From assembly GCF_963675165.1 (NCBI RefSeq), contig NC_087377.1, positions 212,501 through 276,500 on the forward strand: a stretch of 64,000 bases of DNA, read 5' to 3'. Of this stretch, positions 1 to 54,544 are shown one piece after another. Within the stretch, counting starts at the first letter, position 1, and each line of letters opens with the position of its first letter. Source of the stretch: Halichondria panicea. Taxonomy: Eukaryota; Porifera; Demospongiae; Suberitida; Halichondriidae. The notes under the pieces are model-generated. The model searched no databases. It was not told where the DNA came from and saw only the letters and a list, made by a program, of their open reading frames with translations. Made by a program: the position numbers and the translations under genes.

Positions 1-19
1 TAATTTATATGCACTAGCA

Positions 20-8640: not shown

Positions 8641-8689
8641 GCCTTATCTAACAGTGCTTGGAATAGTTATTCGCTGTACTCCCCCCTAG

Positions 8690-11600: not shown

Positions 11601-12648
11601 GTTCCCGTCAGTGGGTTCAATTCACTAGCAATAGTTTTGCGTTCCCGTGAGTGGGTTCAATTCACTAGCAATAGTTTTAAGTTCCCGTGAGTGGTCACTA
11701 GCAATAGTTTTGCGTTCTCATGAGTGGGTTCAATTCACTAGCAATAGTTTTGCGTTCCCGTGGGTGGGTTCAATTCACTAGCAATAGTTTTACGTTCCCG
11801 TGGGTGGGTTCAATTCACCAGCAATAGTTTTGCGTTCCCGTGGGTGGGTTCAATTCACCAGCAATAGTTTTGCGTTCCCGTGGGTGGGTTCAATTCACCA
11901 GCAATAGTTTTGCGTTCCCGTGGGTGGGTTCAATTCACCAGCAATAGTTTTGCGTTCCCGTGGGTGGGTTCCATTCACCAGCAATAGTTTTGCGTTCCCG
12001 TGGGTGGGTTCAATTCACCAGCAATAGTTTTGCGTTCCCGTGGGTGGGTTCAATTCACCAGCAATAGTTTTGCGTTCCCGTGGGTGGGTTCAATTCACCA
12101 GCAATAGTTTTGCGTTCCCGTGGGTGGGTTCAATTCACTAGCAATAGTTTTGCGTTCCCGTGGGTGGGTTCAATTCACTAGCAATAGTTTTAAGTTCCCG
12201 TGAGTGGGTTCAATTCACTAGCAATAGTTTTGCGTTCCCGTGAGTGGGTTCAATTCACTAGCAATAGTTTTGCGTTCCCGTGAGTGGGTTCAATTCACTA
12301 GCAATAGTTTTGCGTTCCCGTGAGTGGGTTCAATTCACTAGCAATAGTTTTGCATTCCCTTGAGTGGGTTCAATTCACTAGCAATAGTTTTACGTTCCCG
12401 TGGGTGGTTTCAAGTTTCCGTGAGTGGGTTCAATTTACTAGCAATAATTTTGCGTTCCCGTCAGTGGGTTCAATTCACTAGCAATAGTTTTGCGTTCCCG
12501 TGAGTGGGTTCAATTCACTAGCAATAGTTTTAAGTTCCCGTGAGTGGTCACTAGCAATAGTTTTGCGTTCTCATGAGTGGGTTCAATTCACTAGCAATAG
12601 TTTTACGTTCCCGTGAGTGGGTTCAATTCACTAGCAATAGTTTTACGT
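8690..12648. repeat. 40-bp satellite array 1
   Basis: About 99 head-to-tail copies of a 40-bp unit whose core reads gggttcaattcactagcaat followed by agttttgcgttcccgtgagt. Some copies lack 7 bases (gttcaat) and are 33 bp; these nearly always follow an agttttaagtt variant. Runs of accagc versus actagc variants and the recurrence of an identical multi-unit block at 9911, 11,458 and 12,351 show higher-order structure. There are no unique spacers, so this is not a CRISPR array. Long frames inside are artefacts. Confidence 0.97.
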
Positions 12649-21495: not shown

Positions 21496-21684
21496 ATATT
21501 ATAATTATTATCTTATTTACTGTTTATGATAATTATTATTTATTAGTACGGCTTCATTATAGTCACATGATGTACGCTAATGATACACACTAATCATTAT
21601 AATTATTTAAAGCAACAAAGCTACGCGTACATATATACGTACTGCATCGCTCGGTAGATTAATAATACACAGCCTATCACTCAC

Positions 21685-25212: not shown

Positions 25213-25446
25213 GTTTTGTAGTTTGTGCTTATTGCGCTGTACTCCCCCCTTGGATGTGTGACTGTGTTTTGTAGTTTGTGCTTTTTGCGCTGTACTCCCC
25301 CCTCGCATGTGTGACTGTGTTTTGTAGTTTGTGCTTTTTGCGCTGTACTCCCCCCTTGCATGTGTGACTGTGTTTTGTAGTTTGTGCTTTTTACGCTGTA
25401 CTCCCCCCTTGCATGTGTGACTGTGTTTTGTAGTTTGTGCTTTTTG
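25212..25446. repeat. 53-bp minisatellite, about 4 copies
   Basis: Same unit as at 12,649, here on the left side of the 40-bp array. The final unit fuses directly into the satellite (tttttgcgttcccatgag). Confidence 0.93.
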
Positions 25447-28145
25447 CGTTCCCATGAGTGGGTTCAATTCACTAGCAATAGTTTTGCGTTCCCGTGGGTG
25501 GGTTCAATTCACTAGCAATAGTTTTGCGTTCCCGTGGGTGGGTTCAATTCACTAGCAATAGTTTTAAGTTGCCGTGAGTGGGTTCAATTCACTAGCAATA
25601 GTTTTACGTTCCCGTAAGTGGGTTCAATTCACTAGCAATAGTTTTGCGTTCCCGTGAGTGGGTTCAATTCACTAGCAATAGTTTTGCGTTCCCGTGAGTG
25701 GGTTCAATTCACTAGCAATAGTTTTACGTTCCCGTGAGTGGGTTCAATTCACTAGCAATAGTTTTACTTTCCCTTGAGTGGGTTCAATTCACTAGCAATA
25801 GTTTTGCGTTCCCGTGAGTGGGTTCAATTCACTAGCAATAGTTTTGCGTTCCCGTGAGTGGGTTCAATTCACTAGCAATAGTTTTGCGTTCCCGTGAGTG
25901 GGTTCAATTCACTAGCAATAGTTTTAAGTTGCCGTGAGTGGGTTCAATTCACTAGCAATAGTTTTACGTTCCCATGAGTGGGTTCAATTCACTAGCAATA
26001 GTTTTGCGTTCCCGTGAGTGGGTTCAATTCACTAGCAATAGTTTTGCGTTCCCGTGAGTGGGTTCAATTCACTAGCAATAGTTTTGCGTTCCCGTGAGTG
26101 GGTTCAATTCACTAGCAATAGTTTTACGTTCCCGTGAGTGGGTTCAATTCACTAGCAATAGTTTTAAGTTGCCGTGAGTGGGTTCAATTCACTAGCAATA
26201 GTTTTACGTTCCCGTGAGTGGGTTCAATTCACTAGCAATAGTTTTGCGTTCCCATGAGTGGGTTCAATTCACTAGCAATAGTTTTGTGTTCCCGTGAGTG
26301 GGTTCAATTCACTAGCAATAGTTTTGCGTTCCCGTGAGTGGGTTCAATTCACTAGCAATAGTTTTGCGTTCCCATGAGTGGGTTCAATTCACTAGCAATA
26401 GTTTTGCGTTCCCGTGAGTGAGTTCAATTCACTAGCAATAGTTTTGCGTTCCTGTGAGTGGGTTCAATTCACTAGCAATAGTTTTACTTTCCCTTGAGTG
26501 GGTTCAATTCACTAGCAATAGTTTTACGTTCCCGTGAGTGGGTTCAATTCACTAGCAATAGTTTTACTTTCCCTTGAGTGGGTTCAATTCACTAGCAATA
26601 TTTTTAAGTTGCCGTGAGTGCATGGGTTCACTTCACTAGCAATAGTTTTACGTTCCCGTGAGTGGGTTCAATTCACTAGCAATAGTTTTACTTTCCCTTG
26701 AGTGGGTTCAATTCACTAGCAATAGTTTTACGTTCCCGTGAGTGGGTTCAATTCACTAGCAATAGTTTTACTTTCCCTTGAGTGGGTTCAATTCACTAGC
26801 AATAGTTTTAAGTTGCCGTGAGTGCATGGGTTCATTTCACTAGCAATGGTTTTACGTTCCCGTGAGTGGGTTCAATTCACTAGCAATAGTTTTACGTTCC
26901 CTTGAGTGGGTTCAATTCACTAGCAATAGTTTTGCGTTCCCTGAGTGGGTTCAATTCACTAGCAATAGTTTTGCGTTCCCGTGAGTGGGTTCAATTCACT
27001 AGCAATAGTTTTGCGTTCCCGTGAGTGAGTTCAATTCACTAGCAATAGTTTTACGTTCCAGTGAGTGGGTTCAATTCACTAGCAATAGTTTTACTTTCCC
27101 GTGAGTGGGTTCAATTCACTAGCAATAGTTTTACGTTCCCGTGAGTGGGTTCAATTAACTAGCAATAGTTTTACGTTCCCGTGAGTGGGTTCAATTCACT
27201 AGCAATAGTTTTACTTTCCTGTGAGTGGGTTCAATTCACTAGCAATAGTTTTACGTTCCCGTGAGTGGGTTCAATTCACTAGCAATAGTTTTACTTTCCT
27301 GTGAGTGGGTTCAATTCACTAGCAATAGTTTTACGTTCCCGTGAGTGGGTTCAATTCACTAGCAATAGTTTTGCGTTCTTGTGAGTGGGTTCAATTCACT
27401 AGCAATAGTTTTGCGTTCCCGTGAGTGGGTTCAATTCACTAGCAATAGTTTTACGTTCCCGTGAGTGGGTTCAATTCACTAGCAATAGTTTTAAGTTGCC
27501 GTGAGTGGGTTCAATTCACTAGCAATAGTTTTAAGTTGCCGTGAGTGCATGGGTTCACTTCAATAGCAATAGTTTTACGTTCCCGTGAGTGGGTTCAATT
27601 CACTAGCAATAGTTTTACGTTCTCTTGAGTGGGTTCAATATTCACTAGCAATAGTTTTGCGTTCCCGTGAGTGGGTTCAATTCACTAGCAATAGTTTTAC
27701 GTTCCCGTGAGTGGGTTCAATTCACTAGCAATAATTTTACGTTCCCGTGAGTGCATGGGTTCAATTCACTAGCAATAGTTTTACGTTCCCGTGAGTGGGT
27801 TCAATTCACTAGCAATAGTTTTGCGTTCCCGTGAGTGGGTTCAATTCACTAGCAATAGTTTTACGTTCCCGTGAGTGGGTTCAATTCACTAGCAATAATT
27901 TTACGTTCCCGTGAGTGCATGGGTTCAATTCACTAGCAATAGTTTTACGTTCCCGTGAGTGGGTTCAATTCACTAGCAATAGTTTTACGTTCCCGTGAGT
28001 GGGTTCAATTCATTAGCAATAGTTTTACGTTCCCGTGAGTGGGTTCAATTCACTAGCAATAGTTTTGCGTTCCCGTGAGTGGGTTCAATTCACTAGCAAT
28101 AGTTTTGCGTTCCCGTGAGTGGGTTCAATTCACTGACAATAGTTT
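25446..28145. repeat. 40-bp satellite array 2, left part
   Basis: About 67 units of the same 40-bp satellite. This part has its own variants, such as agttttaagttgccgtgagt and an insertion giving gtgagtgcatgggttc at 26,620, 26,820, 27,545, 27,750 and 27,910, so it has been homogenised separately from array 1. Confidence 0.97.
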
Positions 28146-28284
28146 TGGTTTTTGCGCTGTGCTCCTCCCTTGCAGGTGTGACTGTGTTTTGTAGTTTGTG
28201 CTTTTTGCGCTGTACTCCCCACACTCACACACACACACACACAGTGAAGGAGCCTCCATCACAACGCCAGCGATATTTCCATAG
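28146..28284. repeat. Interruption of array 2
   Basis: Holds one to two 53-bp units, a short CA run and the tail cagtgaaggagcctccatca. The same trio occurs at 55,200-55,310, so the 53-bp unit plus CA plus tail travels as one block. Confidence 0.85.
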
Positions 28285-30651
28285 TTGAGTGGGTTCAATT
28301 CACTAGCAATAGTTTTACGTTCCCGTGAGTGGGTTCAATTCACTAGCAATAGTTTTAAGTTCCCGTGAGTGGTCACTAGCAATAGTTTTGCGTTCCCATG
28401 AGTGGGTTCAATTCACTAGCAACAGTTTTGCGTTCCCGTGGGTGGGTTCAATTCACTAGCAATAGTTTTAAGTTCTCGTGAGTGGTCACTAGCAATAGTT
28501 TTGCGTTCCCATGAGTGGGTTCAATTCACTAGCAATAGTTTTGTGTTCCCGTGGGTGGGTTCAATTCACAAGCAATAGTTTTAAGTTCTCGTGAGTGGTC
28601 ACTAGCAATAGTTTTGCGTTCCCGTGGGTGGGTTCATTTCACTAGCAATAGTTTTAAGTTCCTGTGAGTAGTCACTAGCAATAGTTCTGCGTTGCCGTGG
28701 GTGGGTTCAATTCACTAGCAATAGTTTTGCGTTCCCGTGAGTGGGTTCAATTCACTAGCAATAGTTTAGCGTTCCCGTGAGTGGGTTCAATTCACTAGCA
28801 ATAGTTTTGCGTTCCCGTGGGTGGGTTCAATTCACTAGCAATAGTTTTGCGTTCCGTGGGTGGGTTCAATTCACTAGCAATAGTTTTGCGTTCCCGTGGG
28901 TGGGTTCAATTCACTAGCAATAGTTTTGCGTTCCCGTGAGTGGGTTCAATTCACTAGCAATAGTTTTGCGTTCCCGTGAGTGGGTTCAATTAATTCACTA
29001 GCAATAGTTTTACGTTCCCGTGAGTGGGTTCAATTCACTAGCAATAGTTTTGCGTTCCCGTGAGTGGGTTCAATTCACTAGCAATAGTTTTGCGTTCCCG
29101 TGAGTGGGTTCAATTCACTAGCAATAGTTTTGCGTTCCCGTGGGTGGGTTCAATTCACTAGCAATAGTTTTGCGTTCCCGTGGGTGGGTCAATTCACTAG
29201 CAATAGTTTTACGTTCCCGTGAGTGGGTTCAATTCACTAGCAATAGTTTTACGTTCCCGTGAGTGGGTTCAATTCACTAGCAATAGTTTTACTTTCCCGT
29301 GAGTGGGTTCAATTCACTAGCAATAGTTTTGCGTTCCCGTGGGTGGGTTCATTTCACTAGCAATAGTTTTAAGTTCCTGTGAGTGGTCACAAGCAATAGT
29401 TTTAAGTTCTCGTGAGTGGTCACTAGCAATAGTTTTGCGTTCCCGTGGGTGGGTTCAATTCACTAGCAATAGTTTTGCGTTCCCGTGAGTGGGTTCAATT
29501 CACTAGCAATAGTTTTGCGTTCCCGTGGGTGGGTTCAATTCACTAGCAATAGTTTTGCGTTCCCGTGGGTGGGTTCAATTCACTAGCAATAGTTTTGCGT
29601 TCCCGTGAGTGGGTTCAATTCACTAGCAATAGTTTTGCGTTCCCGTGAGTGGGTTCAATTCACTAGCAATAGTTTTGCGTTCCCGTGCGTGGGTTCAATT
29701 CACTAGCAATAGTTTTGCGTTCCCGTGGGTTGGTTCAATTCACCAGCAATAGTTTTGCGTTTCCGTGAGTGGGTTCAATTCACCAGCAATAGTTTTGCGT
29801 TCCCGTGGGTGGGTTCAATTCACCAGCAATAGTTTTACCTTCCCGTGAGTGGTTTCAATTCACTAGCAATAGTTTAAGTTCTCGTGAGTGGTCACTAGCA
29901 ATAGTTTTGCGTTCCTGTGGGTGGGTTCAATTCACTAGCAATAGTTTTGCGTTCCCGTGGGTGGGTTCAATTCACTAGCAATAGTTTTAAGTTCCCGTGA
30001 GTGGTCACTAGCAATAGTTTTGCGTTCCCGTGGGTGGGTTCAATTCACTAACAATAGTTTTGCGTTCTCATGAGTGGGTTCAATTCACTAGCAATAGTTT
30101 TGCATTCCCTTGAGTGGGTTCAATTCACTAGCAATTGTTTTACGTTCCCGTGAGTGGGTTCAATTCACTAGCAATAGTTTTAAGTTCCCGTGAGTGGTCA
30201 CTAGCAAGAGTTTTGCGTTCCCGTGGGTGGGTTCAATTCACTAGCAATAGTTTTGCGTTCCCGTGAGTGGGTTCAATTCGCTAGCAATAGTTTTGCATTC
30301 CCTTGAGTGGGTTCAATTCACTAGCAATAGTTTTACGTTCCCGTGGGTGGATTCAATTCACTAGCAATAGTTTCAAGTTTCCGTGAGTGGGTTCAATTCA
30401 CTAGCAATAGTTTTACGTTCCCGTTAGTGGGTTCAATTCACTAGCAATAATTTTGCGTTCCCGTCAGTGGGTTCAATTCACTAGCAATAGTTTTGCGTTC
30501 CCGTGAGTGGGTTCAATTCACTAGCAATAGTTTTAAGTTCCCGTGAGTGGTCACTAGCAATAGTTTTGCGTTCCCATGAGTGGGTTCAATTCACTAGCAA
30601 TTGTTTTACGTTCCCGTGAGTGGGTTCAATTCACTAGCAATAGTTTTACGT
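28285..30651. repeat. 40-bp satellite array 2, right part
   Basis: About 60 units including many 33-bp short forms. The final 500 bases repeat, unit by unit, the right end of array 1 (30,090-30,650 versus 12,351-12,648), showing that the two arrays share their right boundary by duplication. Confidence 0.97.
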
Positions 30652-34209: not shown

Positions 34210-35313
34210 CCAAGGAACAAGTACAGCAGTCATTCAGTGTTAGGTAGTGCCAGACCATCAAACCATCGCCTTGTCCATCCATATATACACAACCATTAAC
34301 CTACGTAGGGAGATAAAAGACTTGCTACACAACATAGCTATAGCTACTCATCTGTAAATTGCAGCCATTCAGTGTTAGGTAGTGCCAGACCATCACCCTA
34401 CGTAGGGAGATAAAAGACTTGCTACTCATCTGTATGTATGCTGTTACAGTGGCTCCTCCACAACCATCAACCTACACAGAGAGCATGAGAGACTTGTCAC
34501 ACAACATAGCTAGCTACTCATCTGTGTGTATGCTGTTACAGTGGCTTCTCCACACACAAATCAACCTACACAGAGAGCATGAGAGACACTGTACACAATG
34601 GAGCTACTTATCTTTTGCTGTGAAGAGACATCCACCTACACACCATAGAAGCCAGCCGTTGATGTCTCCATAGCTGCACACAAAACAATCGAGAGACACT
34701 ATAAATGATAGTAGTGGGCGGTGAGATCTGAGCCCCTTCCCCACATCTCCAGTCAAGCCCCACCCCCTTCAGTACCTGCAATACATTATACAGTGATGAG
34801 GTTAGTAATCCTCCCTGGGTCCCAGAGCAGCATGGCTTGTCTGTACCTGGGGGAGAGAGGAGACAAAAGCAGTGAGAGAATGGAACACTAGTACAGTAGC
34901 TAGTAGGAGGAGCTGTGTGTGTGTGCATTGTGGCTGCAAGAGATGCATGGTTACATTGAGAGCAGCAGTTCAAACAAAACCATCCACTCCACACAATACA
35001 ATACCAGCCAATCACCACCACAGCTGACAACCATCATCCTAGTATTATCAATACACACACAATACATAATTATAACACCAGACAACAAAATTACACCCAT
35101 AGCTGTTTGTGCTGTGCAGAGAAGAGATGAGAAATTCCCACAACCACAAATCAATTCAACAGCGAAGACCACCAATTAATTCAGATCATTATTATCATCT
35201 TAATACCAGACCTTGAATGAATGCACTCCTGACCAGACAAATCATTATAATCAAATCACACATCATCACCAAACCAGACTGTGCAACAAAATTTCCCAAC
35301 CCCACAACAACCA
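34210..35313. repeat. Repeat R, left half of the split copy
   Basis: Matches 56,697-57,640 up to acaacaacca, then stops abruptly at 35,313. The continuation of R is found only at 47,964. It includes the 93-bp units (34,290-34,610). Confidence 0.85.
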
Positions 35314-35647
35314 CACACATAAATGAAAGGTGTCAATTTGGCATGCAAACGCGTGTCAAACTGCTTTCCCAAAAATGAACACACTAACACGGGTGTCAAA
35401 TTAATATATGTCATTTTTACTGTGTCAAAACTGAAACATGCTGAAACTTTTGGTGTGTCGAACAGAGGTATGTCATTTTAAAACGTCACGGTTACAAGAA
35501 TATGACCATATAAATAAAAATACACAAAAGGAACGCCGGAATTATACATAAATATCAAGTAAAACTGAATATAACATAATCATAATTGATACAGTCGGTA
35601 ACTAACTTGGTAATAACTTGGTAACAGTAAATGTACAGTTGGGGTAA

Positions 35648-37186
35648 CTAATGTTGATCTAGCGAGTTTATGAATGATGAGTACTTCACTGTTTTTTTTA
35701 CAGATGTCTCTTTCACACCCATCAACACTTCCTGTATGAAGAGAAGGAGACCAGAGGCAGGTGATGGCTTGGGGTAACTGACGTAGAAGGCGTAGTATGT
35801 TGCAAACAAGCTGATAACCGAGTCAATGACACTGTCGCCCAATACTTCAAAGAGAACCTTTCCTTCACCAAGGATGAACGCTTGCATGCCATTCATGCTC
35901 TTGTCAGCAAAAATTGCAAGCCTTGGCTCTGGAAAGGTCTTTTCAGCTGTCACTTCCTCAATATCAGTCCCGACCTGCAACAAATAAGAGTTAAATTTGA
36001 GGTGCATGCTTCCACAATAATGACGCATGAAAGGAATTACAGTGTTACTGCCTCCGTATATATAGCCGGTAATTTTCGGGAGACAAAATATTTGATTACC
36101 GGCTATAATTATGCGTATATATACGTTGTTGTTTTTACTTACTTGATACAAAGTAAAAGCAGGCAGCTTTAGAGGCTACTCCTGCGGGCCTGAGTTGTGT
36201 GTCAATGAACAGAAGTGCCTTGTATAGCTCCGAGTTTCTTCAGAGTCAGTGGGCACTTCACCATCCATCTGCAGCAGAGTTGGAACAATCTTAGTCCAAG
36301 AATCTCTGATTCGAGAGATGGATTCCTCCCCACACATTAGCGTGAACTCCAACAGCACCTATAACATTTCAAGACTCAATAAATAACCAAGAAAACATTA
36401 GGTGTATAATTATGGTTAAATAAACAATTTAAAGAGCTAACGCACTTACCCATTGATTTCTTGTGAAGAAAGGATTATGTCAAAAGAAGAATTGACATCT
36501 TGTCACCTGAATTTCCAATTCTCTTCCTTCTTTGTTGGTGCGTCTCCCTTATTAACTGTGTAATTGCTGCGTTGTTAGGCGCTTTCTTGGTGAATTGGTC
36601 GCACAACCGACCGTGGTTTCGATCGTATGCACATTCGTCCACACTGATAACGGAGTCTTGGCCAGGAGCGGCTTCAGCTGGCTTTGCTGCAATTATTTGC
36701 ACTAAGTGCGCCTTTTCTGTCTTGAGAGGTTTGATTGCTGACGGTACTGACCTCCTTCTCCGATTTCGGAAGAACATAGTAACCTGTTGCTGCATGCATG
36801 TTGTATGATTAATTATAGCTATAAAAATTTGCAATTATGTATAATTATAATACATGCATGCATTGTTATTATTGTATAATGCTCACCCAATAGCATCCGT
36901 CAATTACAATCTTGTTTCGTAGCTGCTCAAAGCTATTACACAAAACCTTAGCCATTTCGTCGTACTGATTTCCTTTCGGATTCGGGCAAAGACCATAATA
37001 GAAGAGGGAAGCTTCTCGTATTAATGCTAGTTTGTCTTTTCCGTAAATTTGTTTCGCTATTATTGCTCTGTTTACTCTCTCACTGAATACTGGTGGAAGT
37101 GGGCACGGAGTTGGTAGGGTCTTCGTAGGTGCTGCCAGCACCAGTGGGCAAGGAGTTGGTAGGGTCTTCGTAGCATTGCCAGCAAT
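35648..37186 (-). CDS. SAMD3-like uncharacterised protein
   Basis: At least four minus-strand exons: 36,887 to about 37,186 (LPPVFSERVNRAI, LCPNPKGNQYDEMAKVL, DGCYW), then about 36,490-36,783 after aacag (VTMFFRNRRRRS), about 36,180-36,358 (VLLEFTLMCGEESISRI), and 35,648-35,988 after ttgttgcag (ending SSFINSLDQH). The pattern of a 'YPxxxEYxxVAxxLxxxYPxL' region followed by W-x-FRNRRR, and a C-terminal YYAFYVSYPKP...FIQEVL segment, resembles the part of SAMD3-like proteins after the SAM domain, a family of unknown function expanded in fish and invertebrates. The joins between the middle exons are not settled; one candidate is NPFFTRNQW ending at gtaagt. A 36-42 base repeat (ACGAAGACCCTACCAACTC) is duplicated near the N-terminus. 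Confidence 0.5.
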
Positions 37187-37189
37187 GAC

Positions 37190-37856
37190 TGGACACCAAT
37201 TAAAATATGTCAGTAAATCAGTTAGTAATTTTCTGTATATTACGGTATGATTTTATATGTGTTCTTATGAGACCAAAGGCTATGCTTCCCTTTTTCCCTT
37301 GTAGGGAGCTACTTTCAGTTGATTTGCCGATACAAAGAAGAAGAAATACACCTTAGCTAACCTTGGAATCCCACAAGAAGCTAGCCAGCCAGCTTGTATA
37401 AGTTCCCTAACTGCTTTTGTTGATCAATGTTTCAGCGCTTGTCTCGTGTATTGTATTGTAAAATTTGATTATTTTGTATTTTTGTGTTTGATTTGCGGCA
37501 TTCTTACACATATATTTTCATTTTTGCCGATTGCCAGCAAAAATATACGGCCTACTCTGCTGCTTAAAGCGGCTGCTGCTCGATATAAAGTGGACTAAGC
37601 GGTTCCAAAATGTGTCCAGTTTTGTCAAAAAATCCACAATTATCAATGACGTATCGCATTATCTACACATACCCAAGAGCTGCGTAGAGCCACTAATTTG
37701 GGGAATTCCCCATTAATCGCAATGTACCAGCAATGTAAAGTGAGTGTATATGGCTGCAAGTAAGTATAGGCTAGCAGTCATTTACTTGAAGATAGTAAAT
37801 GTGTACAATCTATCAGGATATATAGTATACTATATTATTATGTTGGGTAGAATTAA
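37190..37856. other. Spacer between two minus-strand genes
   Basis: No convincing exon. AT-rich; probably holds the 3' end signal of the gene to the right and the promoter of the SAMD3-like gene. Confidence 0.4.
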
Positions 37857-40436
37857 TCATGATTCAGAGTCAAGTCGTGGCTGTTTGTTCATGTCTACTA
37901 AATCTAATGGAGTTTTTCGTATGTACTTTCGTTTCTTTCGCTTAAATTGTGATGTCTCGTCTATTCTCGCTTCAGCTTTCAGAACCTCCCCCACTGGGTC
38001 ATGCAGATTACTGGAGAAGTAGTGTCTCTTGGCGTCATCATTATTTTTCTCCACCCCTAGAGAAAAAGGTGATTAAAATGTTATCTCTTTACACTCGAAC
38101 TCACCTTGTCCACTAAACATCTTGACATTTCCGTATTTTGAAATAAAGTAAGGGAAGTGAAAGACCAGTGTGTGCATATAGGGCGTAATATTCTTTTCCT
38201 GAAACCCTTGACACTTGTGCTTCAAGCTCAAGAAAAGCCTTATCCAGTCTTTCGCCTATCATGATAGATTATAGTAAATTAGATACAATGGTTCTCCCTA
38301 CTAGTAAACTAACACTATACCTTTTGCTCAACCACTTCACTGGGAGGTGGAGTCCAGCTAGAAACCATCTTATACAAAGAGAGAAATTCCTATAGAGCCA
38401 GACCATATAAATAATTATGTTTGTAAAATGCGAAGGGAAATTTAATTAGTACTCACTGTCCAAAGTTGGGCCATTTTAGCTTGAATTTCTTCCTTCAGTA
38501 GGTCAGCAAACCTCACTGGGAGACGTTCCAGAAACTTCTTGGTGTCGTTCCCCTGCAGTGATGTCCATTCGTAATGTCCAGAAGCTTTGCCATCTGGACC
38601 CCTTGCTTCCCATACCCTGAACGTGATACCACAGTCTTTAACGATCGTCTGTAGTGTTTGTAGGTGAGTGAGTATATGTGCGTTTCCTTGTCTGTCTTGT
38701 TTAGCAGATGCCACTATCTCTAGAATGAGATTTCTTGTTAAAACGTCAGCTATACGTAGGAGTAGGTGTAGCTCATCGGGTATTATATGGTCTGGCTCTA
38801 TGTTCAGTAGTGGTGTTGTAATTGATCCTAGTCGTACACTTGCTGGTTTACTGCTGGGAAGTGCGCCTTTTGCTTGTAGGGAACTCAATGTTCTTGCATT
38901 TGTTACGGTGTAGTCAGCCCTATCCTTTGACATATCCCACCTATAGCGGCAAATGGGGAAGCTAGGTTTAAGCATATAATAATTATAGATATACCTTTCA
39001 TCCTTCTTGATGGTACACCAGACACAAGCGTACATAGAGGTTGCTTTGTTGAGGCCCATACTCAGTAAAAGAAACTAATAATGCAATTTTTATAGTCAGT
39101 AATTAACTATACATTCTCACCTTGTAATCACTACCCAGGAAAAACTCAAGGCGGTACTCTGTTTCATCAACAGTGAGTAGTGGGTGTGAAATGATGTCGT
39201 TCAACTCCTTCAATACCTCAGATAGTCCTGAACTAATTGTTTCATACGACTCTTCGGCTTTTAGGCCAGCAAAAGTATGATTGCCTGTATGAATGTCAAT
39301 ATAAAAATATTTTCACCACTTTCTCGTTTAATATTTTTATTGTTAAGCTTACCCATGCCTGATAAAACATTGTCTTGAATTTCTGGAAATGCAAATGAGA
39401 GAAGTATGATATTGGATGATCTTGTGAATCTGGCTCCGTCACCACTGAGTTTTACTTTTACTGGTTGGGTGATAGCTTTCCCTGAATGAACCTAAAATAA
39501 TAATCCATAATAATAATGTATAATTTCTTCTTTACTTACGATCTTAGCTAGCTCTTCCTGGATTGCAGCTTTCGGTGGTCTATAAGCACCAGGATAAGGA
39601 CCTTCGAGATGTCGGATGTCGAGAGAGTTGTTAATTGAGAGGCGAGCATCCTTGATTCGGTACAGTGGTGGTAAATCAGATGCGACGCTCAATTCATGAT
39701 AAGCTTCGTCACTCACAGCAAACCTGTCAAGTACATAAAGAGCTTGCTGTACCCTCGCAGAATCGTTTGGTGAAAGAGCTGGCGTTTGATGTTGTGGCTT
39801 GTGAGATGGGCTAGATAAAAAATTGAATTTGATGGGAGATCCTGTCTGTTTGCGTAGCTCTAAAGATTCTGGCTGAAGACCGAATGATTCACAAAACCAA
39901 AGCGCTTGCTCTGCAGAGCTCTTACAGTGTGCTAGCTTTCGTTTTACCTGTCGTGGTGATACCTCGTGAACTTTTTTGCCTTTGTTGATGTGTGCTGTGG
40001 TAGGTCTACTTGTTTCGGGGATTGTTGTTGGCTGTGGAGATTCAGTGGATAGTTGCTGCTCAATTTCAGAATACGATTCTGCTTCTCCATCAAGCACGAA
40101 GAGGTTGTATTCTCCAGCAAGTACGGCATACCTCCTTCTTCCTTTTAGCCCCCGTATCCTTCTTGCTACCTTGCTAGCTTGTTCTGCAAGCCTTTTCTCC
40201 AGACGATCGCTTTGTGCTAGTTTAACTATTGTTACCATGCTATTAACTAAGCTAATGAATGTCTCTTCTGCCTTCTTGTTCATGTACCAATGATGCAGCA
40301 ACTCGATAGGAATAGAGAGAGAGAAGTTTGGCTGTACTTGTGGTTCTGTGTGGCTGAAGTCAGAGTACTTCTTTGCTGAATTTGAGATGGTGATGGACAG
40401 GCTCTCTGCTCTTCTGGACTGCTTGTTTACTGCCAT
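37857..40436 (-). CDS. SGDGA/DELH/VEKNND protein, candidate DDE-type nuclease
   Basis: Eight exons with matching phases and no lesion seen: 39,540-40,436, 39,353-39,491, 39,121-39,284, 38,995-39,074, 38,457-38,940, 38,321-38,389, 38,105-38,255 and 37,857-38,056, about 725 residues. Motifs in order: AVSDEAYHELS (about residue 245), VKVKLSGDGARFTRSS (about 310), GLKAEESYE, FFLGSDYK, YACVWC (a CxxC-like pair), IIPDELHLLLRIADVL (about 480), ITPYMHTLVFHFPYF and FSGQGVEKNNDDAKRHY (about 660), with a basic tail RKKRKYIRK. This layout is common in uncharacterised invertebrate proteins. The conserved D (SGDGA), D (PDELH) and E (VEKNND) look like a DDE triad, which is inference. Divergent from the kinase gene, with 214 bases between the starts. 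Confidence 0.75.
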
Positions 40437-40650
40437 AGCTAGGAGGCCCGGGATAATGGAACAAAAGGTCCCTTGAGCTGTTATGTAACAAAATTAATTA
40501 GCCATGTCAATATGAGTGGGCGGGTGAATAGGCTGCGGTGTTATCACCCACTAAATTAACCACAGTACTCATTCAATAGCATGATAACACTTCTCAGATG
40601 CATTATGGCGGGTATTTTGCGACCTCTGGTTCTCTTAGACTTATTACAAA
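40437..40650. promoter_or_regulatory. Divergent intergenic region
   Basis: Only 214 bases separate the start codons of the minus-strand SGDGA protein and the plus-strand kinase, so a shared two-way promoter is likely. No TATA or known factor site is recognised. Confidence 0.45.
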
Positions 40651-41781
40651 ATGGCTGACCAGACATTCTCAAGATCCAAGCTCAAGAGGCTCAATCGAAA
40701 AGCTAGAGTTGACAAAATTGGCAAGCAGCTGTGTATGGAGAAGAAGAGCCTTGAATGTGCCGAGAAAAATGTTCAGAATTGGAAGAAGAAGGCAATAGAT
40801 TATAAACTGTAAGTTGCTGATTAACAGCCAGTAAATAATATTGTTCATACAGGGAACTCAACGTGTATCGAGCTAAGCAATTACGGACAGGAACTCTGGG
40901 AACATCCTGCAGTCACCAACGACCACTAAAGTTACTAACAGCAGCCATGAAGACGAGTGCAATCAGTCTACCCAAGGCAACTCCAAGAATGTGTACGAAT
41001 GCTGATATTATGCGAGGAGTTACTGTAGTTCCAGAGATAAGTGAGAAATGTTTAGCAGATGGGGGTGGTGATGTTCATATAGGAAATGGTCGGTTTGGAA
41101 CATGCTCTCGTATGATTTTTAAAGAGTGTTTTGACGTCTGTGTCAAAACATTTACTTCCGACTCCTCAATCGAATCGATTAGGCATGAAGCCAGTATATT
41201 ACTTACATTAAATTCCAGCCCTTATATACCACACTGTTTTGGTATTTGTTCCACCAGGAGAGCTTTAGTAATGTCTAATGTAAGCGTGAAGCAGCAACAA
41301 GTTTCATTATAATTATTCTGCCTTGTATTCGACTAACGAAATTAAATTAAGCCCTAAGACATGGATGCAAATACTGATCCAAATTTGTGATGGTCTATCA
41401 TACATGCACAAGCTGAGTATTCTTCACAATGATCTTAAAGTAGACAACGTAGTATTAGGGACTACTTTGTTAGAATGTATCCGGCCATGTATTGTGGATT
41501 TTGGAAAGGCATGTAAAGAAAAGCATGCTAAGAAGTACTGCCTGACCGAGGAACAGAAAGTTATTTACATAAAAGAACACACTCAAGTAGCTCCAGACCT
41601 CCGCGATGGGCTTGTTTTACAGAGCACACAGAGCGATATATACTCATTAGGTAGAATAATGAAGAAGATGAACTCCATTGTAATTAAGTCAACTGAACTT
41701 GCCCATGTAATTAAGGAATGTCTTTCTTATCATGCTCATGACCGTCCTAGCTTAGAAACCATTTCTCTTAATGTTGAATGA
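40651..41781 (+). CDS. Coiled-coil protein kinase
   Basis: Exons 40,651-40,808, 40,853-41,279 and 41,302-41,781, about 354 residues. The N-terminal 60 residues are charged and helical (MADQTFSRSKLKRLNRKARV). The kinase domain has the Gly loop GNGRFGTC, the ATP Lys in VCVKTF, the alpha-C Glu in RHEAS, the catalytic loop LHNDLKVDNVVL (HND in place of HRD), DFGKAC, APDLRDG in the APE place and SDIYSLGRI. Key residues K, E, D, N and D are present, so it could be active. The last intron would be only 22 nt (gtaagcgtgaagcagcaacaag); without its removal the frame stops at 41,310. It could instead be a 22-base insertion. Head-to-head with the SGDGA gene. Confidence 0.82.
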
Positions 41782-42069
41782 CTATGTGACTAATTATGTC
41801 TTACATTCATTCGTTCATGTTTAAATCTGGTGCTAGCTTTAACTATGACATAGTCTATGTATAATTGTAGGCAAATCCGTGCTCTCTAATGGAAGGCTGA
41901 CAAGGTTAGCTGTAAGTCGGGATGCGTGTTGACCCAGCCATTTGTTTGAGAGTCATTAAAAGCATTATGGTAGAGAATTGGCCTGAAGCAGTTAGTTATG
42001 AGTCACATAGTGCGTATTGGCTGCTCAGGTTGGGCCATGCATGCATTAACAATTAACAATTAACAATGA
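41782..42069. other. Convergent 3' spacer
   Basis: Lies between the stop codons of the kinase (plus) and the chromodomain gene (minus). A tandem acaattaaca occurs near 42,047. No gene. Confidence 0.5.
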
Positions 42070-42894
42070 TCAACAACGTTTTTTCACCAGATTTACACAT
42101 ACAATTTCAGATAGTAGTCTAGGTGACTCTAACATTTCACCATTGCTATTTCTATATGTTTTCGGTCCATACTTAATTCTAGGACATACTACAATAGGAA
42201 AATCTACTGTGCAGCCATTGCCATATCTATCATACAAAATATACCAACTACCTATAAAATATTCATCGTTAAAATCAGTTTGTTGAAGTTGGAGCTTTCC
42301 GCGGGTCATTTGGGTTCCTCGATCTTTAAATAGGTAACGAAATACATCTAGCCGGAAATCTATAGTTAAATTACAGGATTTTACAGTACCTAAATTTAAA
42401 CTACATTGAATGGACAGAACAAATCTTCTTGTTGCGTCGCTTATAAGCTCGGTATGTGGTGCTTGTGGTGTATTGTATGATCTGAAAGGGGGGAAATGTG
42501 CAGATATAATTATAGTAATACACAGTGCACTGCCATGCCATACTTAATAATCTTACTGGATAGTAGAGATAGTCACATCTTCCTTAGCGACCCATGAAGA
42601 CTGTTCCAATGAGTAACCAGCCCACTTTACCAAATACTCCGTTTTCCCCTAGAAATAGAATCAATCGTATAGGGCTATATATCATAAAATGTTACGTACC
42701 TTAGTTAGTCGATGATGAATTATCCTCTCAACAAGGAAGACCCCTTCTGGCAGACTGTCATCAGACTTACAGCTCAGAGTGGTTCTCACATCTCGTGCTT
42801 CCCGCATGCTAGATAAGTCCATGTCAGCCGAGCTTATATTATGGAGGTAGGAATAGTATCCTTTCTCAGGTCGTTGCCTCTTTGACGAGTCCAT
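42070..42894 (-). CDS. Chromodomain protein
   Basis: Three exons: 42,700-42,894, 42,557-42,648 and 42,070-42,481, about 232 residues. A chromodomain spans exons 1-2: GVFLVERIIHHRLTK then GKTEYLVKWAGYSLEQSSW, with the aromatic positions F, W and W/Y present (residues about 51-96). Chromodomains bind methylated histone tails and in transposons can steer integration. The C-terminal 136 residues (SYNTPQAPHTELISDATRR; FKDRGTQMTRGKLQL; ending LVKKRC) match nothing I recognise. The start is the first ATG of exon 1. It faces the small gene at 43,059 in a divergent pair 164 bases apart. Confidence 0.8.
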
Positions 42895-43058
42895 AACAGG
42901 TCGATCTGCATGAACAGGTCTGCTGGAAGATTAATAATTAGTGACCATAAAGATTTTATCTCTATTCATTTGAACACTTTACTACCATTGATTGCATGCT
43001 ATTACTGTCATGTGAATCAGTAAATTACTATACAAAAAAGAACAGAGAAAGAATTGAG

Positions 43059-43436
43059 ATGGGAAATTGCTGCCACTTCCACCCGTACCCGTACTACATC
43101 GACTCCGACTTACGAGAGATCAGGCACCACAGGAACTCCTTTCCTATTGGGTCGCTAGTAAAGATGGGAACTGAGGGAAAACAATTTTATTTTACAACAG
43201 CAGATGATACTGGAACACATTATTTTCCGATGGGGTCTCAGAAAAAGGCCCAGAACTATTTAAAGAAAGTTGTGAGGCTCAGCCAAACATACGATGTCCA
43301 GGTGTCAGAAGTTTTAAATCCAGACTACACGTTGCTAGGATTTAGAGCCAAAAAAACAAAAGAAGAAAGCACAAAAGAAGCGGACAACAAAGAGCCAAGA
43401 AAGAAAGTTAAATTTAATTTAGTAAAAGTGTTGTAA
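43059..43436 (+). CDS. Small basic protein of unknown function
   Basis: Single-exon frame of 125 residues, starting MGNCCHFHPYPYY and ending in a Lys/Glu-rich tail (AKKTKEESTKEADNKEPRKK). The frame is also open upstream to an ATG at 42,996. MG plus Cys at positions 4-5 could be a lipid-modified N-terminus, which is inference. No family recognised. The promoter region is shared with the chromodomain gene. Confidence 0.55.
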   Translation: MGNCCHFHPYPYYIDSDLREIRHHRNSFPIGSLVKMGTEGKQFYFTTADDTGTHYFPMGSQKKAQNYLKKVVRLSQTYDVQVSEVLNPDYTLLGFRAKKTKEESTKEADNKEPRKKVKFNLVKVL

Positions 43437-43507
43437 CTAGAACAGGACTGAGAAGAATATGACTGAGAACTGACTACTATACTGTACTGTTCTATATAAT
43501 TATTTAC

Positions 43508-43642
43508 TGTGGTAGATCTCTCTAGTCACTGTTACAGGCCGGTAAAAGTAATAACAAAATACTGAGCTGGCAGTACTGCATGCTCAGTATTTTGTTATTA
43601 CTTGTACCGGCCTGTAACAGTGACTAGAGAGATCTGCCACAG
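43508..43642. repeat. Large near-perfect hairpin
   Basis: Two arms of about 58 bases (left tggtagatctctctagtcac ... aaaatactgagc; right gctcagtatttt ... gactagagagatctgcca) around a short centre (tggcagtactgcat). It lies between the 3' ends of the small gene and the SAM-domain gene. It could be a foldback element, a two-way terminator, or joined element ends. Confidence 0.9.
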
Positions 43643-43854
43643 GATAGAATCTACCACAGAAGTCTACATGAGCTCAACCAACAGGTAAACAATAATATTA
43701 CTCACCAGCACCAGTGCAGTGAACGTAGCTAGTTCAGCGAAGATCTTGCGCACGCACTACAATAGTCTATAGTAGCATTTATTTCCGCAGTAGTTAAAAT
43801 GATTGAGTAATATTTGAATTTTCATATAAATAGAACAAATATTTAGACAGGATG

Positions 43855-44856
43855 CTAGAACAATAGTGTCCAAAATACAATGGCAATTGCTGGCAATGGT
43901 GCTGCCAGCACTTTGTACTCTTCTGTCCGTGGCTTTTTAGCAGGTGGTTCAGCTGCTTCATCACTTCTTGCAGGCAGCATTGCTAGAGGATAGTTGGCCA
44001 CAGCTTCGTCCTCAAAATCCCCCATGTTGTAATCCTCTATCAGATTATAGCTGGCACTCATTTGACGTATCGTACCACTCATGGAGCAATTTTCCTGTAG
44101 TTATAAAAGAACGTATATATTATGTCTCAAACTTAACACCACAGAATAAGGGTATTTCGTGGCCAAAAAATTGCCGCTTTGTTAAAGAATTGCACACTTG
44201 TGCAATGTATGAAATAGAAGCCCCTGTAGTGTGCTATGGTGGTTAGCAACAATTGTAGTTGAACGCCCACATTTACCACAATGCTCAGCTCAGTAGAATG
44301 GGGTAGAATGAGAATTGCAGTTGAATACAGTACAATGGGTACAATAGAGCACGGTATAGAATGGGTAGCATATTCTAGAATTGCAGTACAATGGGTTAAC
44401 TCTTTTAAGCACTCAACAATTAAAATTACCTGCTTATAACTATGGTACTAAAGTAAAATGTGTAAATGATTCTAACCTTTTCAAGAAGAGATTTGAGTGC
44501 CATCCTCAATCCACTCTGCGGCAACATATGCTTAAATTCCTCAAAGTCATTGGGTAGTTGAAGCAGTGCAATGCCATCAATTAGGTTTTCTGTAAGTGCA
44601 AACAGATAATAATGTACTATAAAAGCTAAGAATATACCTAAGAAGACACTATAATAATTATTAGTCTACGAGTTGTACCTTTGAATGCAGAAACTACTGT
44701 TTCAGGAAAGCAGTTTTCCCTCAAGAGTCTCCCCACATCAGTTACAGACAACTTTTCCATCTCTTTCAAGGTTCTTTCAAGGTTTCTAAGTAACAAGTCT
44801 AGAGAATATTGCTCTAGGCTATATCTAGTGCGCATGCGCTCTAGATAAAACTGCAT
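43855..44856 (-). CDS. SAM-domain protein
   Basis: Three exons, about 44,679-44,856, 44,477-44,589 and 43,855-44,094, about 175 residues. A SAM (sterile alpha motif) domain crosses exons 1-2: LSVTDVGRLLRENCF, then ENLIDGIALLQLPNDFEEF and SGLRMALKSLLEK, the usual V-x-x-L, IDG-x-x-L-L-x-L and G-x-x pattern. SAM domains oligomerise or bind other SAM proteins. The C-terminal part is acidic with a basic patch (AEPPAKKPRTEEYK) that may be a nuclear signal. Head-to-head with the C2H2 gene, 67 bases between the starts. The last residues are hydrophobic (AIAIVFWTLLF). Confidence 0.7.
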
Positions 44857-44923
44857 AAAATATCGAAATTGGCAAAGCAGTTAGCTCATCAGGTCTCTAT
44901 AGATATATCTCTCCGTATTAATT
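44857..44923. promoter_or_regulatory. Very short divergent promoter region
   Basis: 67 bases between the starts of the SAM gene (minus) and the C2H2 transposase-like gene (plus). No known element recognised. Confidence 0.4.
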
Positions 44924-47851
44924 ATGGCTGACAACTGTGTAGTGACCTGTTGCATGTGTCTTTTTCAGTGCTATTCCCACAAGTCTCTGCTAAAGCACAC
45001 TCTTGCTGTTCATCAAAATGATCCAAGATTTATGGTCAATTGTAGTGTATGTGGCAAGTCAGCAACAAAATGGGAGACTTTGAGGAAGCATTTACGAAAG
45101 CATGGTAAGTCAGCTAATGAGATCATACATAATAATAGATCTAGCATTAAAACTACTACTATTTAATACATCTATAGTTTTGAATATTACATCTATAGTT
45201 TTGAAGTACTTCAACCATTTTTTATAATTATATACAGATGTTCAGATCGACGCAAGTGATCCAATTACAAGTGACCCAGAATCTTGTACAACCACAAATG
45301 ATGACGTTGACGACGATTCACTACCATCGGTTACATCGGCTCATCCCAAGTTTGACCGGGCCATGTTTCTTCTTCGCAGCACTAGCAGTTTAGCACTTAA
45401 TTATTCAAGCATCAAACATCTATGCGAATCAACACAGACACTAATGGAGCAAACTGCAGGACAAATGCAGCAGAAAATGTTGTGTTGTCTTCAAGAAAAA
45501 GGCATCACTGTGGATGAGGTCGTGAAGAAGATTGTCACAGAATGTTGCAATGTTGATGAAATGTTTAGCGGTTTGTCTTCACGAGCGTTAAGAGAGAAAT
45601 ACTACAAACAGCATCTCAATTATGTGGTAATTAACGTATTATTTTGTTATCAGTACAATGTAGCATGAAGGTACATGCATTGTTTTATCATCTCATCATG
45701 TTAAATTACTGTATATGCATGCAATTACAAAATGTATGTTACTAGGAACCATCACCATCACTTCTCGACAAGAACTGGGACTGGGTGAATGACCACGGCA
45801 AGATGCATCTGAAGGAGGTTGAGGCTAAGGGGTACTACATTGATCTCTGGGAGAGCTTGAAGGTTTGTGCTATTTACCAACTCAATCACTGGTTTTATTT
45901 TTATAACTTAATTGTCAGAGTTTGCTATCAAATCCTGCTGTTAGAGAAGAGATCATTGGAAAAAGTTATGTCAGTACAGATGGTAGCATGCGCGATATCT
46001 GTGATGGGGACTTTGTTAAGAAACATCCAGTCTTTCGAGCACATCCAGATGGTTTACAGTTTTTACTGTATCATGATGACATTGAAGTTTGTAATCCTCT
46101 CGGAACCAGTGCTGGAGTTCACAAGTTTGGTGAGAATTGCATTACATGTTGGTTTATACCTTTTTATAATGACATGTAGGTGTGTTTTACTATATATATA
46201 CATTGGGAAACATAAGACCAGTGTTTCGATCATCGCTCCAAGCTATTCAACTACTTGGAGTGGCTAAGTCATCGGACATGAATCAGAGTGCACGTGATAT
46301 CCTCCTCAGAAACTTTGTTCAATGCATGAAATTGCTTTCAACAGTAAGTGTTGCTGGTAGTTTTCTTTTTTTTAACATTACTGTGACGTACCTATGATAA
46401 TGGATATCTCGTGTGTATACATTTCAAATATGCTATTGCAGGATGAAGGATACAGGTTAGAGCTAGACTCAGGTGTGGTAGTACTTCATGGAGCTGTCGT
46501 CTGTCTCTGTGGTGACATACCTGCTAGTAATTTTCTTGGAGGGTTTAAAAAAGGTGTTGGGTTTGCGCTACGGAAATGCAGGCAGTGTCTTTGTTCGAAG
46601 GAAGATTTAAAACATAATGTGAGTTAAAAAACCACTGGTGCTAATTGTATTAATTTTTAACTACTTATAGTTTCATGTTGGTGCGTATACCCTGAGAGAC
46701 TCTCATAGTCACAACCATTACTGTCAGCTAGTGGAAAGTGATGTGAATGGATGTTTGGGGTACTCAACTACGTATGGAGTGAATAATGCGAGCATTCTTC
46801 TGGACATTCCATTCTTTGATGTCACCAAATGTCTTCCGTACGACATAATGCACACAATATTTGAAGGTAAAAATTCATTCAATAGCACACAAATATAATT
46901 ATTATTGCTTCTGTTCATTAGGTGTTGCTCCACGTCTCCTCAAAGAGCTTCTTGTTACTTTTATCAATATCAAGAAGTACTTCACCTTGTCAGAGCTCAA
47001 CCAGTCTCTTGCATCCCACCATTACGGATATTCAGAGCTTGACACCAAACCAAACACAATTACTGGGTCGACAATGGAGTATCATATCAAACAGAAAGGT
47101 GAATGTTCATATCATTTTCCCCACTTTTGTACAATGCTTACTTTCATAATTAAAAAGCACATAAATCATCATTACACGCAGCTTCTCAGATGAAAGCACT
47201 GATCCGATTATTCCCGTTTATCATGGGGGGCTTTGTTCCAGAGGGCGATGAACACACTGGGGTCTTCTCCTAACTCTGTGGGATATCTGCACAATGGTGA
47301 CCGCATTTGTGGTTACAGAGGCAGATGCTTCTGATCTGGCATGGAAAGTAGAGTTGTTGCTAGAAACATATGTGCAACTCTATCCAAACTCGCCCTATGT
47401 TCCAAAGATGCATTATCTTCTGCATCTACCTGACGAACTATTAAGGTATTCTAAAATGTCTAAATTAATGCATAAAGTATATACTTTATTTCATTAGATT
47501 TGGTCCACCACGAAACACATGGTGTATGCGGTTTGAATCCAAGAATAAGGAGTTAAAAGGTTTCACCTCAAACTGCTTTAAGAATGTCCCATACAGTGTG
47601 AGTGTCCGACACCAGCAGAGGTATTGTCACCTTCTAGCAGTGCGTCCTGGACAAGAGATGTCAAATTTCTTGTACAAAGGAGATGAAGTATCCTCAGGTA
47701 AATTTCTATTGCTGTTTGTAAATACAGAATAATTATTACTTTGGAGCTAACTTTTCCTAGGAAAATCTGTCATTTTGGACAATGATCTGGTAGCACCGGT
47801 TACACAACTGTGTGGATTGGACCACCCTCAGCTGCCACTTGTTGCTTATCG
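44924..47851 (+). pseudogene. C2H2-finger transposase-like protein, truncated and frameshifted
   Basis: About twelve exons: 44,924-45,104, 45,238-45,626, 45,746-45,862, 45,919-46,129, 46,180-46,343, 46,442-46,618, 46,671-46,866, 46,922-47,098, 47,182-47,445, 47,498-47,697, 47,761-47,851. The N-terminus has two C2H2 fingers (CCMCLFQCYSHKSLLKH; CSVCGKSATKWETLRKH). The core carries FLLYHDDIEVCNPLG, FYYIYTLGNIRPVFRSSLQ, LCGDIPASNFLGGF, CRQCLC and MRFESKNKELKGF, as in a widespread family of fish and invertebrate transposase-like proteins, with likely D, D and E residues (inference). Near 47,258 the frame slips between PEGDEH and WGLLLTLWD. The last exon ends at a donor with no further exon before the 47,963 junction. 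Probably broken, though the frameshift could be an assembly error. Confidence 0.7.
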
Positions 47852-48532
47852 GTTAGTTTCGTTAACTTTCACAACAAGCTTGTACCAGTGTATACATTTT
47901 TAATTGTTACGATGTCAGCAAACAAACCCACAGCATTCTGTTTAAAACAACAGTAACTACATGCAATCAAATCAACCACAGAAGGACCACCACCAGTAGT
48001 CCAGTAGTTTCCTTGCCCAAGGGACTAATACAATAAGGGCATAATAAACTAAAGGGACCCTGTGACTGTGAGTACCATTAACTAATCTAGCACAGAAGTA
48101 ATCAACCAGAATGTGTGGGATGATTCAACAACAGTAGACTCACAGAGACAACACCTCCTTGCTCTTGAAGACCTCGTCGACTCCAGTTGCAACAAGCCTG
48201 GCACGCAAGGCTTGCACAAGTGCTCAAGACTACTCTTCACTAATCCAGTCAAAAGCTACAGTTCCCTTGGCACACCTACAGTTTAGTTAAAGCCTGAACT
48301 TACCAATTCCATGTGCAGTAGGCACAGAGTTAAGATCCTAAAAAAGCTGTCATAACAGATTAGCATAAGCAGCAGTTGTCTAACTATATTATAGCTAGCT
48401 ATTCTAATGATCCTAGCTATTAAACTAACTATTGGAACTGATAACGAGATCCCAATTATGGCAGGATCCTGTGCTGCTTTCCCTTTAGGCAGTTACTAAC
48501 GGCAGAGTGCTCCCTCAATAGACTGGAGTGCC

Positions 48533-53977: not shown

Positions 53978-54544
53978 GTCACTATAGCAATAGTTTTACG
54001 TTCCCATGAGTGGAGGTTCAATTCACTAGCAATAGTTTTGCGTTCCCGTGAGTGGGTTCAATTCACTAGCAATAGTTTTACGTTCCCATGAGTGGGTTCA
54101 ATTCACTAGCAATAGTTTTAAGTTCCCGTGAGTGGGTTCAATTCACTAGCAATAGTTTTAAGTTGCCGTGAGTGGGTTCAATTCACTAGCAATAGTTTTG
54201 CGTTCCCGTGAGTTGGTTCAATTCACTAGCAATAGTTTTACTTTCCCTTGAGTGGGTTCAATTCACTAGCAATAGTTTTACGTTCCCGTGAGTGGGTTCA
54301 ATTAACTAGCAATAGTTTTACGTTCCCTGAGTGGGTTCAATTCACTAGCAATAGTTTTGCGTTCCCGTGAGTGGGTTCAATTCACTAGCAATAGTTTTGC
54401 GTTCCCGTGAGTGGGTTCAATTCACTAGCAATAGTTTTGCGTTCCCGTGAGTGGGTTCAATTCACTAGCAATAGTTTTAAGTTGCCGTGAGTGGGTTCAA
54501 TTCACTAGCAATAGTTTTAAGTTGCCGTGAGTGGGTTCAATTCA
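53978..54544. repeat. 40-bp satellite array 3
   Basis: About 14 units of the 40-bp satellite, mostly of the gtgagtggg type. Confidence 0.95.

Follow-up and report, generated by a model that had tools for sequence, protein, structure and literature searches.

A transposon with a predicted RAG1-like transposase core and kinase and chromodomain genes, nested within a second transposon in the sponge Halichondria panicea

In the genome of the sponge Halichondria panicea, a repeat, here called R, is interrupted by a 12.65-kb block that carries transposase-like genes together with kinase and chromodomain genes, and the question raised by this locus is whether the block is a single giant transposon or several elements lying within one another. 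The block was studied in a window of 64,000 nucleotides (C1:212501-276500, C1 being contig NC_087377.1) from an assembly of 131 Mb in 39 contigs; positions given below without a contig are those of the window. A preliminary description of the window had proposed one undescribed giant element with seven genes. We find that the block is a nested insertion, in which a complete inner transposon lies inside an outer transposon of about 6 kb that itself sits in R. The full reading, which we consider very probable, is that of a nested block with a recently active inner element that combines a RAG1-like transposase core, a kinase, a chromodomain protein and a small protein with seamless insertion.

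R ends at 35313 and restarts at 47964, with the block (35314-47963) in between. The two R flanks, joined over 200 bp, find an unbroken match at 57553-57748 of the window (insertion point at about 57650) and further matches at C1:114695, 141027 and 194004. The preliminary description was thus right that R is interrupted and that uninterrupted copies lie in the same window, the copy at 57650 matching over the full 200 bp. The copies that it gave as continuous near 33,175 and 18,160 (matched at 33179 and 18162) do continue for about 20 bp beyond the insertion point, but diverge further on. Empty R copies read ...ACAACCAATCAAATC..., whereas the filled copy reads ...ACAACCA, the element and then CAATCAAATC..., which gives a 2-bp CA duplication; this duplication of the outer element is derived from one insertion event. 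The parts of the block are as follows.

35312..35313, no strand: left copy of the CA duplicated at the outer insertion (from empty sites in R)
35314..37173, no strand: outer element, left part, with the terminus CACACATAAATG...; contiguous with 43899 in C1:77637-83635
35648..37173, minus strand: 3' half of the outer SAMD3-like gene, severed by the inner element; outer limit approximate
37174..43898, no strand: complete inner element of 6,725 bp (from the flanks of 16 copies and empty sites)
43899..44880, minus strand: 5' half of the outer SAMD3-like gene, severed by the inner element; outer limit approximate
43899..47963, no strand: outer element, right part, ending ...AACTACATG
47964..47965, no strand: right copy of the CA duplicated at the outer insertion (from empty sites in R)

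Compared with a filled R copy at C1:77637-83635, the window matches over 35314-37173 and then over 43898-47963, and about 6.72 kb of the window have no counterpart. The outer ends are found about 6.0 kb apart at this place and at C1:333416-339389, 619753-625726, 681444-687545 and 944851-950849, all of which adjoin R; the missing middle rests on an alignment for the first copy and on the spacing of the ends for the other four. In the uninterrupted copy, one frame of 165 amino acids (C1:79246-79740, minus strand) runs across the point at which the window has its extra 6.7 kb, and we therefore conclude that the inner element landed within an outer gene and split it. The stretches previously listed as a 'SAM' and a 'SAMD3-like' gene are consequently halves of one reading frame, which leaves six genes instead of seven; both names are presumptive, and the 'SAM' stretch had no match in a Pfam scan. 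A single 12.65-kb transposon with seven genes would account for the clean boundaries in R and for the arrangement of the genes in divergent pairs. However, the middle is missing from five other outer copies, moves by itself with ends of its own and splits an outer gene, and we reject this explanation as exceedingly improbable. As to further copies of the block with the same ends, which the preliminary description had suggested looking for, those located in this genome show the outer and inner parts separately.

The ends of the inner element are defined by two inverted repeats.

37174..37186, plus strand: inner left terminal inverted repeat CATTGCCAGCAAT
43886..43898, minus strand: inner right terminal inverted repeat, with the terminal G in 16 of 16 copies

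Its limits are thus CATTGCCAGCAAT...ATTGCTGGCAATG, the base 3' of ...GGCAAT being G in all 16 copies, and the first 9 bp of the left end recur, in reverse complement, as the last 9 bp of this young right end. The 6,725-bp sequence found at least 14 complete copies in the genome at 99-100% identity, which besides the window are located on C1 (3336566, 4056056, 4426914, 10838204 and 11588458) and elsewhere (C5:7317893, C6:127383, C6:5075734, C7:6733151, C8:4670707, C12:5939748, C13:1815411 and C17:1586526). Two copies are split by inserts of 10-12 kb (C17:2197160 and C12:4254125), one is truncated on the left (C1:195630), two are decayed (C1:13108971-13119876 and C5:1241936-1248233), and older relatives occur on C3, C9, C13 and C1; these counts are lower bounds, drawn from the best 31 of 37 candidates. 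As the near-identical copies stand at unlinked places with different flanks, they indicate that the inner element transposed recently. Three older copies (C5:1241936, C9:3017678 and C1:13119876) end at ...GGCAATTG, 7-9 bp before the young right end, and have unrelated flanks. Inward of the 13-mer, the motif TGGACAC follows after 3 bp at the left end and after 13 bp at the right end; shuffled sequences did equally well in 30 of 2,000 cases within 40 bp and in 305 of 2,000 within 60 bp. We do not press a 12/23-like spacer measured from this motif, as the spacer is 6 bp in a diverged copy on C3 and the shorter right end of the three older copies makes the two spacings equal.

Does the inner element duplicate its target? 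Where the two elements are nested, TCTTCGTAG is followed directly by GTGCTGCC in the uninterrupted outer sequence, and the window reads TCTTCGTAG, CATTGCC...GGCAATG and GTGCTGCC. GCAATG, present at both inner ends, was rejected as a 6-bp target-site duplication (TSD), as it is not in the uninterrupted site. We compared the 20-base flanks of 15 fetched copies and the window, 16 in total. Flank repeats of 1 bp are present in 5 of 16 (2.9 expected by re-pairing), of 2 bp in none (0.7 expected) and of 3 bp in two (0.33 expected), namely the C7 copy and a copy in a CA microsatellite (C6:5075734), and the latter alone accounts for the single repeats of 5, 7 and 9 bp. Both flanks were then joined without the element (39 bp) for 14 of the 15 fetched copies, the microsatellite copy being left out, and uninterrupted counterparts were found for four of them: the C13 copy (8 places, 100%), the C17:2197160 copy (4 places, 100%), the C8 copy (26 places, 100%) and the C1:4056056 copy (1 place, 98%). 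The other ten had no uninterrupted counterpart among the matches listed (the best 40 of 306). Including the window copy, all five insertions with empty sites are seamless. The right junction of C1:195630 agrees with this, the base 5' of TAGTACT being C in three uninterrupted R copies and the G of the element in the filled one. The earlier estimate of at most 2 bp (ca) of duplication therefore holds for the outer element, where the comparison with empty sites gives CA; the inner element has none at the five insertions with empty sites. Likewise, no clear inverted repeats are seen at the outer ends, as stated, but the inner element carries them. The fourth base after the inner right end is C or T in all 16 copies (12 C, 4 T), with no mirror on the left.

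An assembly artefact could in principle have produced the inner copy or the missing duplication, given that R is a multicopy repeat less than 1 Mb from the contig end and thus prone to mis-assembly. As the same ends recur on eight contigs, at 16 places in all, and seamless uninterrupted sites exist for four insertions beyond the window, we regard this as very improbable.

The inner element contains four genes, for which the transposase and chromodomain models were made by hand with GT-AG splice sites.

37857..40436, minus strand: inner transposase, RAG1-like core by homologue model; 8 exons, 727 amino acids, hand-made splice model
Exons 1-4, minus strand, hand-made: 40436-39540, 39491-39353, 39284-39121, 39074-38995
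Exons 5-8, minus strand, hand-made: 38940-38457, 38389-38321, 38255-38105, 38056-37857
40651..41781, plus strand: inner protein kinase; frame broken in the window between about 41280 and 41310
42070..42894, minus strand: inner chromodomain protein, 232 amino acids; exons 42894-42700, 42648-42557, 42481-42070
43059..43436, plus strand: inner small protein (MGNCC...), 125 amino acids, basic C-terminus; no known family

The kinase, chromodomain, small basic and two transposase-like genes named in the preliminary description are indeed present (with PF00069 and PF00385 matches), and kinase and chromodomain cargo beside a transposase is as unusual as it had stated, but this applies to the inner 6,725-bp element and not to the whole block. 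The window kinase model matches PF00069 with an E-value of 1.7e-17, and the protein P0054, which has an intact frame, matches the same family with 9e-22. An intron joining exons 2 and 3 proved wrong, P0054 and 12 of 17 near-identical copies showing one continuous frame of 312 amino acids; searches with the window model used the version with this intron, and the kinase assignment holds via P0054. In the remaining five copies the frame is broken, alike in the window and three others and differently at C6:129989. All 17 kinase relatives compared retain the glycine-loop residues, Lys, Glu, HND, Asn and DFG, so that the family looks catalytically competent. The chromodomain matches PF00385 (E 2e-12) and its nearest solved chains are chromobox proteins; none of 61 candidates from the protein database reached E <= 0.01 as a homologue of the chromodomain protein. 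Of the 21 matches listed for the small protein, 18 are 97-100% identical, and its fold predicted from the single sequence (predicted local distance difference test 44.8) was not used.

The association of these genes is old, as a relative at C13:3140806-3145424 keeps the order of the inner element in reverse, with chromodomain (plus), kinase (minus) and transposase (plus) at protein identities of 35%, 55% and 50-52%, respectively. Transposase (minus), kinase (plus) and chromodomain (minus) pieces also follow the inner order at C3:3531641-3536145, and kinase and chromodomain stand together at C13:2523231-2524129, with a transposase piece 27 kb off. Pieces standing alone, a kinase piece at C1:6173026 and transposase pieces at C3:3523269-3524302, count against an old association, and kinase matches at 36% (C3:3645864, C1:4737469 and C1:4777411) may be other kinases. 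A recent capture of the kinase and chromodomain genes from the host, as passengers, would be in line with the loss of the kinase frame in cis, which is tolerated in three near-identical copies with the break of the window and in a fourth with another. The conserved order in the C13 relative at 50-55% identity (transposase and kinase) and a kinase with the same N-terminal extension from another source in the protein database (P0059) speak against it, and we consider such a recent capture improbable.

For the transposase, the predicted fold of a Nematostella homologue has RAG1 as its best match in the Protein Data Bank (PDB), the PDB matches being RAG1/Transib, and the second Asp, the CxxC, the His-His and the Glu are colinear with RAG1 by a sequence profile. 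The modelled core thus appears to be of the RAG1/RAGL/Transib kind. The predicted catalytic residues of the transposase are Asp317, Asp398 and Glu664. A protein database search gave 53 relatives of the transposase, from cnidarians and sponges, and the named homologues are mostly cnidarian. An NCBIfam scan of the homologues gave nothing useful, and among viral contigs none of 71 pattern matches encodes a relative. The fold lists contained no Harbinger, CACTA or Chapaev structure, which excludes none of these families.

Several points weigh against our reading of the inner element. The transposase model was built by hand without transcripts, the fold is that of the Nematostella homologue (39% identical over 77%) and not of the window protein, and the first Asp was assigned by motif alone. 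The stretches matched by the RAG profile are individually non-significant (independent E-values of 0.8 to 64), and coiled-coil proteins score similarly through an N-terminal coil (E 9e-4, 0.01 and 0.004). Two homologues carry a precomputed match to Pfam PF28422, so that a curated family covers part of these proteins. To our knowledge there is no solved structure of a CMC-type transposase (Chapaev and kin), and RAG1 as best PDB match is compatible with membership of that group. As to the insertion sites, the flanks of the C7 copy match over 3 bp (TGT), or over 4 bp when the terminal G is assigned to the flank, and C6:5075734 has odd-length flank matches of up to 9 bp because of its CA microsatellite. 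Given the shorter right end of the three older copies, the right end seen today may have arisen recently. Finally, as the window copy and four others attest, a broken kinase does not keep the element from spreading, at least in trans; with five of 17 frames broken, the kinase is not needed in cis.

How, then, does the inner element compare with known systems? The heptamer of a recombination signal sequence (RSS) reads CAC..., Transib has a single transposase gene, and the PHD finger of RAG2 reads H3. RAG-like (RAGL) transposons, according to the portions of PMC7204232 drawn on here, carry convergent RAG1L-RAG2L pairs and RSS-heptamer-like ends, and their TSDs are almost always 5 bp, as in RAG and Transib transposition; 'sponge' and 'kinase' are absent as words from the available text of that paper. 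The inner element is similar to RAG1 and to RAGL transposons of the ProtoRAG type in its DDE-type transposase, RAG1-like in its core by the homologue model, and in having a chromatin-reader gene within the same element. In contrast, it has kinase and chromodomain genes in place of a RAG2-like kelch/PHD gene; no kelch or PHD match was found in the four gene models and 15 open reading frames scanned, a scan that short exons could escape, and the largest stretch outside the gene models is 683 bp. Its ends read CATTGCCAGCAAT, with no RSS-heptamer-like end, and the 5-bp TSD of RAGL and Transib is absent, the only 5-bp flank repeat (1 of 16) being that of the microsatellite copy and the empty sites being seamless. 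Compared with Transib, it also has four genes instead of one, a zero-base instead of a 5-bp TSD and different ends. Spy, a PIF/Harbinger relative (PMC4482050, in part), likewise has inverted repeats and no TSD, but prefers AAATTT, which is not found as an insertion target in the flanks of the 16 inner copies, and the core of the inner transposase is predicted to be RAG1-like. In a limited search, no part of which was aimed at RAG1, we came across no account of a RAG1-like transposon that carries kinase and chromodomain genes or lacks a TSD.

Alternatively, the inner element might be an ordinary member of the Chapaev/CMC branch of the Transib clan, with the cargo alone unusual and the missing duplication already in Repbase. 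The Transib superfamily unites Transib, TransibSU, Chapaev and Chapaev3, and Chapaev has been reported from the starlet sea anemone (Kapitonov and Koonin, PMC4411706, in the sections used here), which fits with the mostly cnidarian homologues and with PF28422 already covering part of two of them. On the other hand, no CACTA, Plavaka or KDZ model was among the Pfam matches of the inner element proteins up to E 1, and the TSDs of 2-4 bp given for CMC elements in part of PMC4482050 are not seen in the 16 flanks or the empty sites. We therefore consider this assignment rather unlikely.

Based on the end structure, the fold and the seamless sites, we lean towards a mechanism in which the transposase would bind the CATTGCCAGCAAT ends, excise the element and join both ends to directly opposed target phosphates without a stagger, resulting in a seamless insertion. 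Staggered joining with the gap trimmed and not filled is less likely, because no bases are lost at the uninterrupted sites. By analogy with the PHD finger of RAG2, the chromodomain protein could act as a chromatin reader for targeting or escape from silencing, perhaps tethering the complex to modified histones, and the kinase could regulate the transposase, host repair or silencing; we put forward both roles tentatively, as somewhat short of an even chance. One might further speculate, at just under an even chance, that the inner element founds a separate RAG1-like lineage that was never associated with RAG2, has a zero-base stagger, holds kinase and chromodomain proteins in the regulatory and chromatin-reading place of RAG2, and is active still or was so very recently. 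If this were true, the spacing of strand transfer could change without a change of fold, as opposed to the 5-bp duplications of RAG, RAGL and Transib, and there would be a second answer to how a RAG1-like enzyme gains chromatin-reading and regulatory partners. The copies are near-identical and their genes mostly intact, so that these proposals can be tested at the bench.

The outer element carries a second transposase-like gene.

44924..47732, plus strand: transposase-like gene of the outer element with C2H2 fingers; several exons, limits approximate; in the window copy the frame seems to be broken near 47230

Its similarity to Plavaka PF18759 is weak (E 0.0026, 17.5 bits) and below the curated cut-off of 26.3. 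The outer element shares a 2-bp TSD and a CAC start with CACTA/Plavaka elements; it differs by having no clear inverted repeats of the CACTA type (left end CACACATAAATG, right end in reverse complement CATGTAGTTACT) and a SAMD3-like second gene. We tentatively read it as CACTA/Plavaka-like. The right half also occurs at C1:13338088-13342197, adjoining R sequence, and a partial copy at C6:390100-394698 lies outside R. Since the located copies mostly adjoin R, most look like duplications of a single R insertion. The outer left terminus occurs at eight further places on seven contigs (C3, C5 twice, C6, C7, C11, C12 and C15), of which those on C3, C11 and C12 have a common flank and the others differing flanks. 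A second family on these contigs shares only the first ~127 bp with the outer left end, followed in several members by a minisatellite with a period of ~64 bp. R flank and outer left end are repeated together three times at C1:71261-77736, with a period of 3,138 bp, and twice at C1:941613/944751, at the same spacing.

Some features were noted within the inner copies and around the block.

43499..43650, no strand: palindrome of 152 bp with two arms of 76 nt (91%), close to the inner right end

This palindrome is found in all 17 near-identical inner copies and may represent either a hairpin terminator or a small insertion of older date. The inserts at C12:4257497-4269167 (~11.7 kb) and C17:2200600-2211147 (~10.5 kb) are third insertions inside inner copies, one between the transposase and kinase genes and one directly upstream of the kinase start; that on C12 shows a duplication of 6 bp (GTTATC) as well as short inverted repeats. 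The C8:4670707 copy has inserted into a multicopy sequence; most occurrences of this sequence are accompanied by an inverted partner no more than ~100 bp away, an arrangement like that of a small inverted-repeat element. On C1, 5,000 bases (125001-130000) are N. A transposase fragment at 20861-21529 of the window (plus strand) matches PF13843 (E 2.7e-37), which we take to be piggyBac-type. Long minisatellite arrays lie at 8687-12648, 25442-28151, 28286-30651 and 53985-54544 of the window and are similar to one another at numerous offsets, frequently multiples of ~40 bp, mostly at 85-95% among the 200 of 656 matches listed.

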